Assembly (NCBI RefSeq): GCF_030409805.1
Contig: NZ_JAUFQP010000013.1
Span: 1,122,501-1,186,500, forward strand
Length of the DNA: 64,000 nt
Source of the DNA: Algibacter miyuki
GTDB lineage: Bacteria > Bacteroidota > Bacteroidia > Flavobacteriales > Flavobacteriaceae
Direction: 5' to 3'
Shown: positions 19,283-26,471 of the stretch, piece by piece
Numbering within the stretch: position 1 is the first letter of the stretch
How the letters are laid out: the number at the start of each line of letters is the position of its first letter
Made by a program: the position numbers and the translations under genes
Notes under the pieces: generated by a model
Databases searched by the model: none
Told to the model about the DNA's origin: nothing
The model's input: only the letters and a program-made list of their open reading frames with translations

Positions 19283-20173
19283 TTAAACAGCTGGCCTAAT
19301 ATCCACAGCGACCTTCATTTTATTTTCACCCGAACTATAGATAACACCTTTTAGTGGTGGTACATCATAATAATCCCGTCCGTAAGCCACAATAATATGT
19401 TGGTTTTTTGGTATTTGATTATTTGTAGGGTCAAAATCTACCCAGCCAAATTCCGGAATATATAATGAAAACCAAGCGTGAGACGCATCGGTACCTACTA
19501 GTTTTTCTTTCCCTGGAGGCGGTAAGGTTTCAATATAACCACTAACATAACGTGCGGGCAAACCAATAGATCTCAGGCAAGCAATGCCAATTTGCGCAAA
19601 ATCTTGGCAAACGCCTTTTTTATTTTCCATAACCTCTTGTATAGGTGTTGCCACATTGGTTACGTTTGAGTTGAATTCAAAATCAGTAAAAATACGTTGC
19701 ATCAATTCAACGGTCGCTTCAAAAATAGGACGCCCTGGTTTAAATGAAACCAAAGCATAGTCTTTAATGTTTTTCGATATTTTGGCAATTAAAATAGACT
19801 CTAATAAGAATTGTTTAACCTCTAAAATTTCAGGAGAAAGCTTGGTCATCGCTTTTCTTGCGTCTTCTAAAGTCATGGCGGTGCCAATTTTAGACTCATA
19901 AATATCAGGCGCTAAACTCACATCGCGAAGTACTTTGCTTTTAGCAATAACTTTTAATTCTTTATGATGTTGCTGTATAGAAAAACGGGTAATTGTGTTT
20001 CCGAAGAAATCTGTACGTTCTGAAATTTCTGTTGGTTTCGGACTGATTTCTAAATGATAACTTAAAATAGTTTGACCTAAAAAATCACGAGGTTTTAAGG
20101 TGGCTATATTGTGACAAAATGTAACGCCGTCGACGTATTTGTAACTTGTGGTATGTGATAATTGAAAAACCAT
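19283..20173 (-). CDS. Transglutaminase-like cysteine protein (Bact_transglu_N plus core)
   Basis: The 296-residue protein has the N-terminal bacterial transglutaminase-associated domain (1-85, starting FQLSHTTSYKY). The transglutaminase core keeps an intact triad: C189 in K-K-G-V-C-Q-D-F-A, H232 in D-A-S-H-A-W-F and D248 in W-V-D-F-D-P-T-N-N. There is no signal peptide, so it is cytoplasmic. Proteins of this type occur with circularly permuted ATP-grasp and alpha-E proteins; they may cleave or form amide bonds in a small peptide. Its ATG overlaps the stop of the upstream ATP-grasp gene by one base. It is the last gene of a three-gene operon. Its 3' end lies only 17 bases from the convergent ABC gene, with no terminator visible between. 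Confidence 0.92.
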   Translation of the reverse strand: MVFQLSHTTSYKYVDGVTFCHNIATLKPRDFLGQTILSYHLEISPKPTEISERTDFFGNTITRFSIQQHHKELKVIAKSKVLRDVSLAPDIYESKIGTAMTLEDARKAMTKLSPEILEVKQFLLESILIAKISKNIKDYALVSFKPGRPIFEATVELMQRIFTDFEFNSNVTNVATPIQEVMENKKGVCQDFAQIGIACLRSIGLPARYVSGYIETLPPPGKEKLVGTDASHAWFSLYIPEFGWVDFDPTNNQIPKNQHIIVAYGRDYYDVPPLKGVIYSSGENKMKVAVDIRPAV

Positions 20174-22731
20174 TATTGTAGTGGGAAGTTTTGATTAACC
20201 AATTGATTTTGTTGATAAGAATGATTGAAATACGTATCGGAAATAGATAATGACGTTTGATGTAGCAACTCACTAATATCCGATAGTACGTGTTCTAGAT
20301 ATTCCCTAAGCGCTTCGTTATCATCTAATACAATTAGTTTTTTTGCATCTAAATTTGAAACCAAATTATTCAATTGATGAATTAAGGTATAGCAAGCCGT
20401 ATTACCATTAACACCTTTAGGGACAGGTAATTTGCTGATGTCTTTTAAAATACGATTAAGCTGATAAGTCAACGAGCGACTGTATTTATCATTCAGTAAA
20501 ACTAAGTTTATCACGTTCTCTACACTTAAAAAAGAGCGGTAGCTGTAACGATAAATATTCAAACTTTCATGGCTAGTTAATAACGCTTCAAGCACTTCAT
20601 ATTCTAAATCTTCATTGTGATGAGCAACAATTAAAGCACGGGTTTTTGCAATGGTTAAACTGGCTTGTTCGGTTTGTAAACCTATAAAATAGAGTAATAA
20701 ACCTTGATCGACTAAAATACTTTCTTCAATTAAGCCCATAAAAGCGATAAGCCTAGTAATGGTATTGTCTAATAATTTTATTAGGGTTGAAATGGAGTAT
20801 TCATTCTTTTTGTCATATTTATTCCATAGCTTTTTGATGCCATCGAATACGCGCCACATATCTTTAGACCATAGGTTTCTTAGCGAGTAATACGAATTGT
20901 TGAAACTAATTAATGTTTGCGCTAAGGATCCTATTCTAAAATTATCCAAAATAAGAGAATTCATTTCTTTTAATGGATTTTTAAGCACTTCTTCCTTTCC
21001 TTTCCCAACGAAACCAGGGAGCGTATGTGTGATATTGGTAATGGCTTCAAATATAATTTTTAAACTATCGGAAGGTGTATCACTTTTATCATATTGGGCA
21101 TGTTGCATTTTGTTTAACGCCATCCTTAACAGACGAGAAGTTACTAAGGCACGTCCTAAATAACGTCCCGACCAAAACAGGTTTTCGGCAGTATGACTTG
21201 GTAAATCGTTAATGTCTGATACCGGTTTTTGAAAGGTATTGTCCCAACTATAATTTTGAAATTGATTTTGAGCTTTATCTGTTAAAACCCAAAAATCTTT
21301 ACTAATACCGCCACGCTGATTAGATACTCTTAAGTTTTCGCGTTCGGCAGCTACACGAACTAAACCGCCCGGCATAATGCTGTAAGAATCTCGTTTTGCT
21401 ATGGCGAACGTACGGCACATCACTTTGCGAGGTTCTAGTTTTCCGTCAATAAAATCGGGTGCCGTCGAGAATTGTATTTTTGCTTGAGCAACAAAACGAT
21501 AGGGGTTTGCTAATATTTCTTCTTTTAATTTCTTGAGCTCTTTTTTATTTAAAAATTCACCAAAATATAAACTTTCTCTGTTGGAGCGGTCGATGCGTTT
21601 TACCACATATTTGGTTAAATTTTTTAATACATGATTGCGCTCTTTTTCTTGTCCGCACCACCAAGAGGCAATTTGCGGCAGAATTAATTCTTCATTTAAA
21701 AAATATTTAGAAATCGCATTCATAAACGGAATGAGTCCAGAGTTTTCCAAAACTCCGCTTCCAATAGGATTTACAATACTCACGTTTTGTTGACGAATAA
21801 CATCCAATATACCAGCGATACCTAAATATGAATCTTCACGGAGTTCTAAAGGATCCATATAAACATCATCAACACGTCTTAAAATGACATGAACTTGCTT
21901 TAATTCTTTTAAAGATTTCATCCAAACTTTGCCATTTCTCACCACTAAATCGTTTCCTTTTACCAAAGGATAGCCTAGAAAGGTGGACATGTAAGCATGT
22001 TCAAAATAGGTTTCGTTATGCGGTCCTGGAGTTAAGATAACAATGTTTGGGTTGCTCACATTTTTAGGCGCGGCATCAATAAGCATTTGATTATAATCCT
22101 GAAAAAACGAAGTCGGTTGCTTTACATTAATGCCGCTAAATAAATTGGGTGCGGCTTTGTTTATAGCAAACCTGTTTTCGAGAGCATAACCTAAACCTGA
22201 TGGGGCTTGCGTACGATCGTTTACCACCCACATGCGGCCATCTGGACCACGTGCTAAATCGGTAGCGTGAATGAGTAAATTTTTAGAGGTATTATACCGT
22301 ATTTGGTCGCATTGCCTTAAAAAACCACGATGCGCAAAAATAACTTCTTGCGGCACAATGCCATTTTTAATCAGTTCGCGCTTACCATAGATGTCTTTAA
22401 GCACTAAATTGAGTAATTCGGCACGTTGTTTCAAACCTTTTTCAATGGTTTGCCATTCACTTTGGTGAATAATAAAAGGGACAATGTTTAAATCCCAAGT
22501 GCGGTTTAGGCCTTTGGGATCATTATAAACATTATAGGTAACGCCGTTTTCGTCCATCAACCAATCAATTTCTTTTTGTCGAGAAGTTAATTCGTCGGAA
22601 CCGGCTTTTGTTAAATTAGATAATAAACTAACCCAATTAGGGTTAATTTTATCCTTAGATTTCAATACTTCATCATAATTTTTGTTTTTGATAAAATAAT
22701 TCTGAAATAGTGTATTCGAATCTATGGTCAT
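20173..22731 (-). CDS. Circularly permuted ATP-grasp protein fused to an alpha-E domain
   Basis: The 852-residue protein joins two domains that are often separate genes. Residues about 60-500 are a circularly permuted ATP-grasp (COG2308 type), with TWDLNIVPFIIH, GRMWVVNDRTQAPSGLGYA, NPIGSGVLENSGLIPFM and the late CRTFAIAKRDSYSIMPGG. From about 520 (AENLFWSGRYLGRALVTSR) to the end is the all-helical alpha-E domain, with the repeated helices typical of that family. ATP-grasp enzymes make an acyl-phosphate and join it to an amine, so peptide-bond synthesis is the likely chemistry; the substrates are not known. It lies 11 bases after the DUF2126 gene and overlaps the small transglutaminase gene by one base. 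Confidence 0.92.
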   Translation of the reverse strand: MTIDSNTLFQNYFIKNKNYDEVLKSKDKINPNWVSLLSNLTKAGSDELTSRQKEIDWLMDENGVTYNVYNDPKGLNRTWDLNIVPFIIHQSEWQTIEKGLKQRAELLNLVLKDIYGKRELIKNGIVPQEVIFAHRGFLRQCDQIRYNTSKNLLIHATDLARGPDGRMWVVNDRTQAPSGLGYALENRFAINKAAPNLFSGINVKQPTSFFQDYNQMLIDAAPKNVSNPNIVILTPGPHNETYFEHAYMSTFLGYPLVKGNDLVVRNGKVWMKSLKELKQVHVILRRVDDVYMDPLELREDSYLGIAGILDVIRQQNVSIVNPIGSGVLENSGLIPFMNAISKYFLNEELILPQIASWWCGQEKERNHVLKNLTKYVVKRIDRSNRESLYFGEFLNKKELKKLKEEILANPYRFVAQAKIQFSTAPDFIDGKLEPRKVMCRTFAIAKRDSYSIMPGGLVRVAAERENLRVSNQRGGISKDFWVLTDKAQNQFQNYSWDNTFQKPVSDINDLPSHTAENLFWSGRYLGRALVTSRLLRMALNKMQHAQYDKSDTPSDSLKIIFEAITNITHTLPGFVGKGKEEVLKNPLKEMNSLILDNFRIGSLAQTLISFNNSYYSLRNLWSKDMWRVFDGIKKLWNKYDKKNEYSISTLIKLLDNTITRLIAFMGLIEESILVDQGLLLYFIGLQTEQASLTIAKTRALIVAHHNEDLEYEVLEALLTSHESLNIYRYSYRSFLSVENVINLVLLNDKYSRSLTYQLNRILKDISKLPVPKGVNGNTACYTLIHQLNNLVSNLDAKKLIVLDDNEALREYLEHVLSDISELLHQTSLSISDTYFNHSYQQNQLVNQNFPLQ

Positions 22732-22742
22732 TTATGTTTTAA

Positions 22743-25700
22743 TTACTTTTGTCTTAAATCTGTTGTGTTCGGAAACTCAAGGTTTGCAGGAAGTTCCTTA
22801 TAATTAAATTTCTTAGAACTGCCTTTCTTTTTCACACTCGTATTCGATGATGCATCATCTGTTATAGTTTCTTTTACAGGATCGATTTCACCTTGCGTGT
22901 GTCCTGATTCCCAGAAACGATTAATACGTCTAGACTCAGCTTCGTAACTATTTACTGGATGTACATCATAAGAGCGTCCACCAGGATGCGATACAAAATA
23001 TGTACAACCACCAATAGAACGTTTGTTCCAAGTATCAACAATATCGAAAACCAATGGTGCATCTACACCAATTGTTGGGTGTAGCGCGGAATATGGATCC
23101 CATGCTTTATAGCGTATTCCTGCAACAAACTCGCCTTTTACAGCGGTAGGTTTTAAGTTTACCTTTACACCGTTGCAAGTTACAACATATCTTTCTTCTG
23201 TGAAATTAGCGACTTTAATTTGTATGCGTTCCAAAGAGGAATCTACATATCGAGCTGTTCCGCCTCCAGTCATTTCTTCACCTAAAACATTCCAAGGTTC
23301 AATGGCAGCACGCAATTCTATATGAATATTGTTGATGGTTACCATGCCATGTAATGGAAATCTGAATTCGAAAAATGGATTAAACCATTCTTCTTTAAAC
23401 TTATAACCAGCCTTATTAAGCGAGGTTACAATGTCTTTAATATCTTCTCTAACAAAATGTTCTATTAAGAATTTATCATGTAATTCGGTACCCCAACGCA
23501 CTAATTTATGCTCGTAAGGTTTTTTCCAGAACCAAGCGACTAAAGTACGAACCAGCAAATTTTGCATTAAACTCATCTGCGGATGTGGCGGCATATCGAA
23601 AGCACGAAGCTCTAAAATACCTAAACGCCCTGTGGATGAATCGGGTGAGTATAATTTATCGATACAGAATTCGGCGCGGTGCGTATTACCTGTTAAATCG
23701 GTTAATAAATGTCTAAATAATCTATCGGTTAACCAGAAAGGAACATCGCCATCTTTTGGAATTTGACTAAAAGCAATTTCCAACTCGTAAAGGTTTTCCA
23801 TACGCGCTTCGTCAATTCTTGGAGCCTGACTTGTAGCGCCAACAAACGAACCTGAAAATAAATAAGATAAGCCTGGGTGATGTTGCCAAAACGTAAGTAA
23901 ACTTCGTAATAAACTTGGTTTACGTAACAGCGGGCTATCAGCTGGAGATATACCGCCAAGTGTTACGTGATTTCCGCCACCTGTACCTGTATGTTTACCA
24001 TCAAGCATAAATTTTTCGGTGCCTAAACGCGATTGTTTTGCTTCTTCATATAAAGCAAATGTGTTTTTAGTAAGCTCGTCCCAATTTTTTGCTGGGTGTA
24101 CGTTAATTTCAATAACACCAGGGTCGGGCGTGATTTTTAAAGATTCTAATCGATTATCTTTTGGAGCTGCATAACCTTCTAAAATCACAGGGATGTTTAG
24201 TGTTTTTGCGGTTGCTTCAATAGATGACAATAAATCTAAATAATATTCAGCACAGTCTAATGGCGGTAAAAATAAGTAGAGTTTTTGGTCTCTAACTTCT
24301 GCGCAAAGGGCTGTTCTTATAAAATAATCTGTTTTCGGTTTTTCTAATTCACCGTTAACAAAGGATACATATCTATTGGTTGCTATCTTTTTATAACTTG
24401 GAAATCTGCCACGTTTTGTGAATTGATCCGGTTCAAACTTTGGAAATTCTTCGTGTTCTGGTTTCTCAACAAGCGATGATAGTGGTAAACGCAAACCTAC
24501 TGGAGAATTTCCAGGCGTTAAAAATAAATGGTTACGTCTAAATTGCCAAAAGCAAGTGTACCATTTACCGAAACTATTATTTAGTGGCAGTAAATGCCCA
24601 ACCACTTTGTTGGTACCTTGTTCTAATATTTCGCCTAATTTCTTTTGAATAAGCGAGCCATCTTTATCGGTTCTAGGATCAATGTCTACCGGTAAATTAC
24701 CTTCTTCCCAAAGAAAATAAAAGGCATCTTCAAAGGCCGGCATAATGGTTTCATCTGTAATACCAAGGTATTTGGTAAGGGTGTCTAAAAATAATTTATC
24801 AGCATTTTCTGGAACAATTTTATTGTCTGCAAAGGTTGAAAGGAGTTTTTCATTATGCCAAATAACACGTCCATCTTTACGCCAACATAACTCAGTTCCC
24901 CAACGTGGTAAAGGTTCTCCAGGATACCATTTGCCTTGTGCACGGTGTAAAAAACCGCCTTTTGCAAATCTATTAAATAAGCGTTTAGTTAAATTATCGG
25001 CTAGTTCTCTTTTGTGTGGACCATCAGCATCAGTATTCCATTCTGGAGATTCCATGTCGTCGATAGATACAAAAGTAGGTTCGCCACCCATGGTTAAACG
25101 TACGTCGCCTTTTTCAAGTTCATTTTCAACTTTAAAGCCTAGTTTATAGATGTCGTTCCATTGTTTTTCAGTGTATGGTTTTGTTACACGAGGCGATTCA
25201 AAAATTCGTTTTACAGAGTTTTCAAATTCAAATTCTGTTTCACAAAAGTCGGTCATTCCTGAAACAGGTGCTGCACTTTCAAACGATGGTGTGCAGGCTA
25301 ATGGGATATGGCCTTCTCCAGCTAATAATCCAGAGGTGGCATCGAAACCAATCCATCCAGCGCCAGGTAAATAAACTTCAGCCCAAGCGTGTAAATCGGT
25401 GAAATCTTCCTCAGGTCCAGAAGGGCCATCAAGCGATTTTTCATCCGATTTTAATTGTACAATATAACCAGAAACAAAACGAGCTCCAAAGCCTAAATGC
25501 CTTAAAGTTTGCACAAACAACCAAGCATAATCACGGCATGAGCCATTTCTTTGGGTTAGTGTTTCTTCACAAGTTTGCACGCCAGGATCTAACCTGATGT
25601 TATAACTTAAGTACTCGTAAACTTTACGGTTGATATCAATTAAAAAATAGATGGTTTTTCGAGGAGAATAATCAATTGTTTTAATAAACTCCTTTATTAG

Positions 25701-26075
25701 CGGACCATTATCAGTAATTTCTAAATAGGGTAGAAGTTCTTTTTTAACGGTTTCATTATATTCAAACGGGTATTCTTCCGCAGATTCTTCAACAAAAAAG
25801 TCGAATGGATTTATAGTTTTTAAGTCGGCTATTATTTCCACTTCCACCGATAATTCTGTGGTTTTTTCAGGGAAAATTAATCGAGCTATATAGTTACCAA
25901 AGGGATCCTGTTGCCAGTTAAAAAACTGATTTTCTGGTTTTATTTTTATAGAATAAGCCTCAATAGGTGTTCTGCTGTGTGGTGCAGGCCGTAATCTAAA
26001 TATATGTGGAGATAGGTTTATTGCTCTATCATATTTATACTTTGTTTTGTGTGAGATTACAATTTTTAACGCCAT
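22743..26075 (-). CDS. Transglutaminase-like protein fused to DUF2126
   Basis: The 1110-residue protein begins with Bact_transglu_N (1-85) and a transglutaminase core with an intact triad: C180 in R-N-G-S-C-R-D-Y-A, H229 in D-L-H-A-W and D245 in W-I-G-F-D-A-T-S-G. Residues about 300-1100 are DUF2126, recognisable by LTMGGEPTFVS, a GTGGGNHVTLGG block and LELRAFDMPPHPQMS. The DUF2126 part has been linked by sequence analysis to the glutamine-synthetase/COOH-NH2 ligase fold; I state that from memory. No signal peptide is present. It is the first gene of the operon with the ATP-grasp/alpha-E fusion and the second transglutaminase. The C terminus (last 60 residues) is polar and Lys/Ser-rich. Confidence 0.93.
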   Translation of the reverse strand: MALKIVISHKTKYKYDRAINLSPHIFRLRPAPHSRTPIEAYSIKIKPENQFFNWQQDPFGNYIARLIFPEKTTELSVEVEIIADLKTINPFDFFVEESAEEYPFEYNETVKKELLPYLEITDNGPLIKEFIKTIDYSPRKTIYFLIDINRKVYEYLSYNIRLDPGVQTCEETLTQRNGSCRDYAWLFVQTLRHLGFGARFVSGYIVQLKSDEKSLDGPSGPEEDFTDLHAWAEVYLPGAGWIGFDATSGLLAGEGHIPLACTPSFESAAPVSGMTDFCETEFEFENSVKRIFESPRVTKPYTEKQWNDIYKLGFKVENELEKGDVRLTMGGEPTFVSIDDMESPEWNTDADGPHKRELADNLTKRLFNRFAKGGFLHRAQGKWYPGEPLPRWGTELCWRKDGRVIWHNEKLLSTFADNKIVPENADKLFLDTLTKYLGITDETIMPAFEDAFYFLWEEGNLPVDIDPRTDKDGSLIQKKLGEILEQGTNKVVGHLLPLNNSFGKWYTCFWQFRRNHLFLTPGNSPVGLRLPLSSLVEKPEHEEFPKFEPDQFTKRGRFPSYKKIATNRYVSFVNGELEKPKTDYFIRTALCAEVRDQKLYLFLPPLDCAEYYLDLLSSIEATAKTLNIPVILEGYAAPKDNRLESLKITPDPGVIEINVHPAKNWDELTKNTFALYEEAKQSRLGTEKFMLDGKHTGTGGGNHVTLGGISPADSPLLRKPSLLRSLLTFWQHHPGLSYLFSGSFVGATSQAPRIDEARMENLYELEIAFSQIPKDGDVPFWLTDRLFRHLLTDLTGNTHRAEFCIDKLYSPDSSTGRLGILELRAFDMPPHPQMSLMQNLLVRTLVAWFWKKPYEHKLVRWGTELHDKFLIEHFVREDIKDIVTSLNKAGYKFKEEWFNPFFEFRFPLHGMVTINNIHIELRAAIEPWNVLGEEMTGGGTARYVDSSLERIQIKVANFTEERYVVTCNGVKVNLKPTAVKGEFVAGIRYKAWDPYSALHPTIGVDAPLVFDIVDTWNKRSIGGCTYFVSHPGGRSYDVHPVNSYEAESRRINRFWESGHTQGEIDPVKETITDDASSNTSVKKKGSSKKFNYKELPANLEFPNTTDLRQK

Positions 26076-26471
26076 AAATTGGTGGTTTTATTGAATGGAT
26101 TTGAAAGTAAAAAGATTCATATAAATGTACATTAATTTTCTTGGTAATGTTAAGGTTTTATGTAAAATTGAAATAATTAGTAAAACTATTAAAACATTGA
26201 AAATTATGATGAATTAAAATGAAGATATATTGAATTTAATGATTATTTATGATAATATCGATAAAATGTATAATTTATTAAGTCGGTTTATTCTGTTTAC
26301 TAGATTGAAAACCTTAAAATGATTATATAATATAAGCAATAAAAATTTTTTTACATAAAATTGGATATAAATAAGCTTTACTATTTATTTATATTGGTAT
26401 TTAATCTTACATTAGTTAGCTTAAAAGGTCCATAAATGAAATTTTTTCCAAAATCTCTTCAATATATAAAA
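26076..26471. other. AT-rich divergent intergenic stretch
   Basis: It separates the minus-strand transglutaminase operon from the plus-strand hybrid kinase and must contain promoters for both. The base composition is extremely AT-rich. I could not pick out a convincing TTG-N19-21-TAnnTTTG pair, tRNA or hairpin. Confidence 0.4.

Follow-up and report, generated by a model that had tools for sequence, protein, structure and literature searches.

A transglutaminase-DUF2126 operon of Algibacter miyuki with a predicted glutamine synthetase-fold ligase and a probably repurposed ATP-grasp-AlphaE paralog

The 64,000-nucleotide stretch of Algibacter miyuki DNA analysed here, called the window (NCBI RefSeq assembly GCF_030409805.1, contig NZ_JAUFQP010000013.1, positions 1,122,501 to 1,186,500), carries an operon of three packed minus-strand genes. 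The first encodes TG1-DUF2126, in which a transglutaminase-like (TG) domain is fused to a DUF2126 region. The second encodes a permuted ATP-grasp domain (CP-ATP-grasp) fused to an AlphaE domain, and the third encodes TG2, a second TG-like protein. The packing reported in a preliminary description of this DNA is confirmed by the open reading frames (ORFs), with a gap of 11 bases (22732-22742) between the first two genes and an overlap of 1 base (20173) between the last two. The domain composition is likewise confirmed by Pfam, with all matches well above the gathering scores: Bact_transglu_N (2.8e-25), Transglut_core (9.3e-18) and DUF2126 (1257.7 bits over the whole profile) in the first protein, CP_ATPgrasp_2 (3.2e-147) and Alpha-E (2.2e-50) in the second, and Bact_transglu_N (6.1e-25) and Transglut_core (1.7e-19) in the third. 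A TG domain fused to DUF2126, together with CP-ATP-grasp, AlphaE and a second TG in one operon, is a known kind of gene set (Iyer and Aravind; Anbu-operon literature). As previously stated, it is known from comparative genomics, and the literature searched yielded no established substrate or product for it. The points of interest are the degenerate ATP-grasp domain of the operon, the splitting of the system over two loci and the support for a glutamine synthetase (GS) fold in DUF2126.

The Cys-His-Asp triads announced for both TG domains are found at C180/H229/D245 in TG1 and at C189/H232/D248 in TG2. They are invariant in 81/81 TG1 domains and in 57/57 other linked TG domains, the window included. 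Rv2569c presumably lies in the same cluster as Rv2566, a member of the TG-DUF2126 family. A serine-protease reading, based on the activity reported for Rv2569c in PMC11081392, was dropped because a Cys-His-Asp site would not give the inhibitor profile described there.

The DUF2126 domain was modelled with AlphaFold2 over residues 271-1110, that is 840 amino acids (aa), with a predicted local distance difference test score (pLDDT) of 78.2 and a predicted template modelling score (pTM) of 0.79. The best 50 rows obtained with this model in VIA-align are all GS or GS homologs such as GmaS (Z 12.8-15.1, 221-283 residues aligned). The top Foldseek matches are glutamine synthetases as well (best E 0.0089), Fab fragments appearing further down the list. 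At the sequence level, E332, E633, E656, H703, E822 and R824 are invariant in 57/57 rows, and the motifs M-G-G-E332, P-G-V-I-E656, G-G-G-N-H703 and G-I-L-E822-L-R824 match, by eye, E129, E220, H269, E357 and R359 of E. coli GS in order and context. We take these E. coli residues, whose positions were checked, to be the catalytic metal-site and catalytic residues of the enzyme. Model and conservation thus support the assignment of the DUF2126 domain to the GS fold with GS-like catalytic residues, and the ligase function previously attributed to it is strengthened accordingly. DUF2126 resembles GS and GmaS in the predicted core fold (Z up to 15.1) and in the metal-site residues; it is much longer, is fused to a TG domain and carries T334 at the position of GS E131. 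The predicted fold agrees with PMC2588565 (section 6), where the family containing DUF2126 was placed in the carboxylate-amine ligase superfamily in 2008 and has been called a ligase since. The family described there (Rv2566; PF09899) also combines an N-terminal TG-like domain with a GS-superfamily ligase and has no Pup-like ORF nearby; what sets the Algibacter locus apart is the support that a predicted model lends to the GS fold, and the degeneracy of the neighbouring ATP-grasp. The general design of TG1-DUF2126 recalls glutathionylspermidine/trypanothione synthetase-amidase (GspS/TryS), in which a papain-like cysteine amidase is fused to an ATP-dependent amide ligase, except that the fused ligase would here be of GS fold and not ATP-grasp, and that the amidase is of the transglutaminase type.

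AlphaE matches twice in this genome. The second copy lies about 536 kb from the window operon on the same contig, in a locus where CP-ATP-grasp, AlphaE and TG are encoded by separate genes. The fused form of the window operon is termed type A and the unfused form of the second locus type B. The system is widespread, with at least 591 DUF2126 relatives, of which 80 loci of named records from at least eight phyla were retained; these loci, the window and the second locus of A. miyuki (L003) make up the set used for comparing the two types. Its 97 ATP-grasp and 94 AlphaE sequences all fall, without exception, on the expected side of an A/B division (FastTree support 1.0). Eleven sites are near-invariant in type B, 10 or 11 of them being kept in 43/43 sequences. 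The same sites are almost entirely lost in the 54 type A sequences, where none is kept in 32, one in 20 and two in 2; the window protein keeps 0/11. In a second set of sequences, which partly overlaps the first and is made of Bacteroidota relatives (the window A and L003 B rows included; one member, G004, appears to be A. lectus a second time), 0-1/11 sites are kept in 12/12 type A rows and 11/11 in 14/14 type B rows.

The nature of these sites is informative. By motif and spacing, E168 and N170 of type B (E-x-N-x4-S) match E330, N332 and S337 of E. coli GspS, as well as E344, N346 and S351 of TryS, in which D330, E344 and N346 contact Mg (PMC3581523). K326 of type B matches, also by motif, GspS K498 (TryS K513), the first ATP lysine, and the eleven sites further include a G-G-Y-G loop and D433. 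In the window protein the replacements are E168->N, N170->R, K326->S, G-G-Y-G->N-R-E-S and D433->M, and the R-E-N motif of type B AlphaE is lost in type A as well. Judged by its sequence, the second protein of the operon is therefore a member of the CP-ATP-grasp family, but one that lacks the Mg ligands, the ATP lysine and the glycine-rich loop of a GspS-like ligase. An earlier statement of this degeneracy was not found in the literature searched; coverage was partial and priority is not claimed.

These losses bear directly on the preliminary description, according to which a small peptide made jointly by two active enzymes, DUF2126 and the ATP-grasp of the operon, would be cut or transferred by the TG enzymes. 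Several observations are consistent with such a joint ligation: the high-scoring CP_ATPgrasp_2 match, the homology to a protein of solved structure (PDB 3n6x, 2.1e-85), the conservation of the gene pair and the retention of some residues near the old active site. However, 3n6x itself has the type B motifs, and all 54 type A sequences keep at most two of the eleven sites that comprise E-x-N, the first lysine, the glycine-rich loop, D433 and others. A catalytic window ATP-grasp is thus unlikely. The loss of catalytic residues in relatives, named beforehand as an outcome that would speak against the proposal, was found in part, because the type A clade has lost the Mg- and ATP-matching sites kept by its paralog; the TG triads and the DUF2126 residues are invariant. 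On the whole, the earlier interpretation is partly supported.

Type A does not resemble a decaying gene. Its ORF is free of stop codons in 5/5 genomes of the genus, and omega, the ratio of nonsynonymous to synonymous substitution rates, is 0.046-0.089 in 10/10 within-genus pairs, these values being rough as most synonymous rates (dS) are near or above 1. The old metal site has acquired a pattern of its own, D-R-x-Q-x-P-S-G, with R173 in 47/54, Q175 in 45/54 and G181 in 54/54 sequences, and the new residues W358 and G360 are kept in 54/54. Over the same 30 loci, mean ATP-grasp identity is 0.42 in type A and 0.56 in type B, so that A diverges faster, with a small difference for AlphaE (0.33 and 0.35). 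Since site loss is combined with strong purifying selection, type A, which forms a separate paralogous clade, is probably a pseudo-ligase repurposed for another use. The type A AlphaE domain gave a model of high quality (pLDDT 93.1), from which no fold identity was retained: nothing was matched by Foldseek at E <=0.001, and the highest Z reached in VIA-align, 9.5, lies within what the tool states as noise for helical bundles. The cytochrome bd and NasR rows of this comparison were left uninterpreted.

The coordinates of both loci are collected in Table 1. The Anbu operon is composed of ATP-grasp, AlphaE, TG and Anbu (PMC5666114, PMC6376114). The second locus has the first three of these genes in the same order; the window operon differs from the Anbu operon by the addition of DUF2126 and of the degenerate fused paralog. 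A Flavo-1 RNA match is present near the second locus, on the minus strand (L003 6368-6510), and not beside its genes; no riboswitch or other RNA match was obtained at the window operon in the four sources scanned. In two other genomes the A and B loci are neighbours. They are adjacent and divergent in a family relative (G006, L026 5647-15245), where the type B pair has no following TG, and convergent in G281 (L059 7550-18904), where the B set ends in TG and a Peptidase_Mx zincin. Peptidase_Mx, a recurrent partner elsewhere, was not found in the A. miyuki genome.

Table 1. Features of the DUF2126 operon in the window, numbered from its first nucleotide, and of the second locus in the same genome
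Feature	Position	Strand	Basis
TG1-DUF2126, TG-like cysteine amidase fused to predicted GS-fold ligase, 1110 aa	22743..26075	minus	ORF, Pfam
TG1 part, residues 1-262; triad codons C180 25536-25538, H229 25389-25391, D245 25341-25343	25290..26075	minus	Pfam
DUF2126 domain, residues 277-1108; GS-like motif residues E332, E656, H703, E822, R824	22752..25247	minus	Pfam, model, conservation
Type A CP-ATP-grasp-AlphaE fusion, 852 aa, degenerate active site	20173..22731	minus	ORF, Pfam, site comparison
CP-ATP-grasp domain, residues 85-461; N171-D-R173 (22213-22221) at the type B E-x-N position	21349..22479	minus	Pfam
AlphaE domain, residues 510-835; R-E-N motif of type B replaced	20227..21204	minus	Pfam, model
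TG2, second TG-like cysteine amidase, 296 aa; triad codons C189 19607-19609, H232 19478-19480, D248 19430-19432	19283..20173	minus	ORF, Pfam
Second locus, type B: CP-ATP-grasp 479 aa, AlphaE 307 aa, TG 327 aa, unfused	C1:602713-606097 (L003 8714-12098)		

The operon is flanked on one side by genes for PFK, GAPDH, a BadF-family ATPase and an ABC ATPase, and on the other by genes for a hybrid histidine kinase, a Rid-family protein and LptD (Pfam). Neighbour clustering reveals the same flanks in 4/4 other genomes of the genus, except for the histidine kinase, missing in one. In these four genomes (L029-L032), a gene of the IMPDH/GMP-reductase family (346-369 aa; assigned by Pfam for one of the four and by clustering for the others) lies directly upstream of TG1-DUF2126; it is absent from the corresponding interval of the window (26076-26435). 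The claim that no precursor-peptide gene accompanies the cluster holds, no ORF of more than 30 aa being present in this interval of 360 bases, which separates the operon from its upstream neighbour. As regards a locus for a ribosomally synthesized and post-translationally modified peptide (RiPP), no unlabelled neighbour family of at least 90 aa occurs in more than 7/80 of the retained loci, the recurrence of shorter ORFs elsewhere not having been tested. The absence of signal peptides is also borne out, none being evident at the N-termini when judged by eye without a predictor. The three proteins have no match at E 0.001 in NCBIfam, PHROGs or PADLOC (PADLOC 0 families for 3/3 proteins), and a phage or anti-phage defence function was set aside. 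The closest named relative among the matches listed is Algibacter lectus DSM 15365 (94% protein identity). The genome is listed with 99.06% completeness and 6.01% contamination; contamination is an unlikely cause of these observations because both loci stand on one 1.46-Mb contig and both recur in the genus.

The largest unlabelled neighbour family of the 80 loci (ORFs of at least 90 aa), found in seven of them, has a GGDEF response regulator as its scanned member. Among the neighbour examples scanned, three have no Pfam match and the rest belong to known families (citrate synthase, GGDEF regulator, SHMT). These and other neighbours, such as ArsC and a peptide release factor, were treated as local context. 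Three observations on individual records can be added. In an Aliarcobacter record, an AstE/AspA-like amidohydrolase gene separates the A set from the B set (L098 19931-20884), and members of the same neighbour family are present in L099 and L145. A GltS-type glutamate symporter gene is found directly downstream of a DUF2126 gene devoid of linked ATP-grasp (L057 11869-13089). Finally, the contig L100 is titled as a Helicobacter pylori metagenome-assembled genome (MAG), although its DUF2126 groups with Arcobacter-like proteins, and the title may be wrong.

The whole-genome search for co-occurrence proposed in the preliminary description supports a conserved gene set. The three genes keep their order in 4/4 other congeneric genomes searched, as well as in loci from several phyla, and the arrangement therefore does not result from chance. 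A TG domain besides TG1 is linked in 52 of the 54 loci having type A. Among 296 Bacteroidota, DUF2126 occurs in 12 genomes and AlphaE in 118, all 12 being within the 118, and the nine genomes with two AlphaE matches all have DUF2126. In a set of 60 relatives, own genome included, all seven DUF2126 genomes have two AlphaE matches, and three further genomes have one AlphaE and no DUF2126. Of the 80 named loci, 54 have a linked type A, 31 have both A and B linked, and 12 are without any linked ATP-grasp or AlphaE, some of these 12 being on short contigs. The other 49 genomes, namely those without linked A or without linked B and thus not a random sample, were searched as a whole: AlphaE was present in 49/49, type A in 37 and type B in 47, which brings the totals to 68/80 for A and 78/80 for B. 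These assignments reflect our own judgement, made from the AlphaE bit score and the length of the open frame. In G352, G357, G361 and G380, frames that stood at a contig end or had an unusual length were taken as A; in G352 and G353, short matches of low score were taken as B.

The distribution of Anbu is relevant to another possibility, protein tagging or turnover comparable to pupylation, in which an amino acid or peptide would be coupled to proteins by the ligases, and the tag would be taken off, or the target degraded, by TG, Anbu or a metallopeptidase. A profile built on three Anbu proteins from Bacteroidota detected 21 Anbu genomes among the 296 Bacteroidota; all 21 are AlphaE carriers, and Anbu is present in 6 of the 12 DUF2126 genomes of this set. 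Anbu or zincin genes are moreover linked in some DUF2126 loci (L116 and L154 each have two Anbu genes near DUF2126), and a tagging hypothesis is described in PMC6376114. On the other hand, Anbu was not detected in the A. miyuki genome or in the rest of the 60 relatives, either with PF00227 or with the three-protein profile. The latter carries more weight because PF00227 can miss Bacteroidota Anbu, a true neighbour scoring 18.9 bits for a cut-off of 22.4; a broader 15-row profile found nothing in A. lectus (G351). No Pup-like ORF lies beside the operon and PF00227 has no match genome-wide, Pup itself not having been searched genome-wide, and an argument against protein conjugation by the DUF2126 family was made in 2008 (PMC2588565, section 6). 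Tagging is accordingly considered improbable for this operon.

Anbu and type A may be alternatives. Linked Anbu is found in 8 of the 12 loci with B and without A, and in 4 of the 54 loci with A; at the genome level, Anbu is present in 11/12 DUF2126 genomes without type A versus 13/37 with it (Fisher p 0.0008). When the phylogeny is considered, the DUF2126 tree offers only five independent pairs, for which a sign test is not significant (median p 0.25), so that replacement of type A by Anbu was retained as a lead only. A bolder proposal, which we regard as possible though doubtful, is that DUF2126 systems would depend on a pseudo-ligase of their own. This second ATP-grasp-AlphaE, which arose by duplication, became fused and lost its catalytic function, would serve as substrate carrier or regulatory subunit of the intact copy, Anbu usually replacing it and TG2 in lineages without type A. 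If true, a dead ligase with a cysteine amidase would be interchangeable with a proteasome-like hydrolase as partners of one GS-type ligase.

PuuA glutamylates an amine en route to nitrogen release. A catabolic route of this kind, in which the GS-like ligase would glutamylate an amine or amide as GmaS and PuuA do and the cysteine amidases would free the glutamyl group, is suggested by the presence of GmaS among the structural matches and by the ntrC-dependent and nitrate-induced expression reported in other species. Genes for an oxidase, an aminotransferase or a transporter are not repeatedly found next to the cluster, where the most frequent unlabelled family is the one mentioned above, with its GGDEF response regulator and 7/80 loci, and this route appears rather improbable. 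The expression data come from two proteobacteria. In a Burkholderia ntrC mutant, four adjacent genes with the annotations DUF404/DUF407, DUF403, TG and large TG protein are listed at -8.2, -9.4, -9.4 and -6.0 (PMC5491218), and in P. putida the Anbu and CP-ATP-grasp genes are up on nitrate versus ammonium (log2 4.44 and 3.99; PMC8050072). As to biochemistry, the ATP-grasp of the Yersinia bercovieri Anbu operon releases phosphate from ATP (PMC6376114), the sole activity found for such an ATP-grasp in the literature searched; judged from its gene organisation, this protein would be of type B. The word untested, used for the system in the preliminary description, is to be qualified in view of these ATP-grasp and expression data.

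Taken together, these results are best explained by a GS-type ligase/cysteine amidase that would work with the type B ligase in making and unmaking an amide conjugate, perhaps under nitrogen limitation, to which we assign a probability of roughly 50% on the basis of sequence and models. The window operon would represent the DUF2126 arm of a conserved cytoplasmic system. DUF2126 would activate a carboxylate, probably glutamyl, as an acyl phosphate and join it to an amine, and TG1 and TG2 would cut or transfer the same kind of bond, in the manner of the synthetase and amidase halves of GspS/TryS, with which type B ATP-grasp shares (by eye) the E-x-N-x4-S and lysine motifs. The type A protein may be non-catalytic and bind the substrate or the type B partners as scaffold or regulator, ATP-grasp ligation being performed by the intact ATP-grasp, AlphaE and TG of the second locus. 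Nitrogen limitation would switch the system on, as suggested by other species, and the product would for this reason more likely be a nitrogen-storage or scavenging intermediate than a toxin or a RiPP.

Several points weigh against this explanation. What was computed are domains, conserved residues, a predicted fold and co-occurrence; substrates, direction and partners are all inferred from them. Foldseek alone gives no DUF2126 match at E 0.001 or better (best 0.0089), and the GS and GspS residue equivalences are motif matches made by eye, hhalign with single E. coli sequences being non-significant for both (probability 2.3 for DUF2126 with GlnA). Type A retains the neighbouring residues K378 in 43/54, R440 in 53/54 and D293 in 54/54 sequences, which makes nucleotide binding or an altered chemistry possible, and the omegas of type A are rough. 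Neither type is strictly needed on present data, since type B was not found in 2 of the 68 type A genomes (G354 and G370, both MAG records), nor type A in 12 of the 80 DUF2126 genomes. Lastly, the nitrogen data come from proteobacteria and not from Flavobacteriia, and that the large TG protein of Burkholderia carries DUF2126 is our own deduction.

The combination of a degenerate ATP-grasp, a system split over two loci and support for a GS fold makes an old question easier to test. The likely live ligases are DUF2126 and the type B ATP-grasp with its AlphaE, and the ATP-grasp encoded beside DUF2126 will probably fail in assays. As the working partner is often encoded elsewhere in the genome, deletions of a single locus, or metabolomics based on them, may be misleading for this family.

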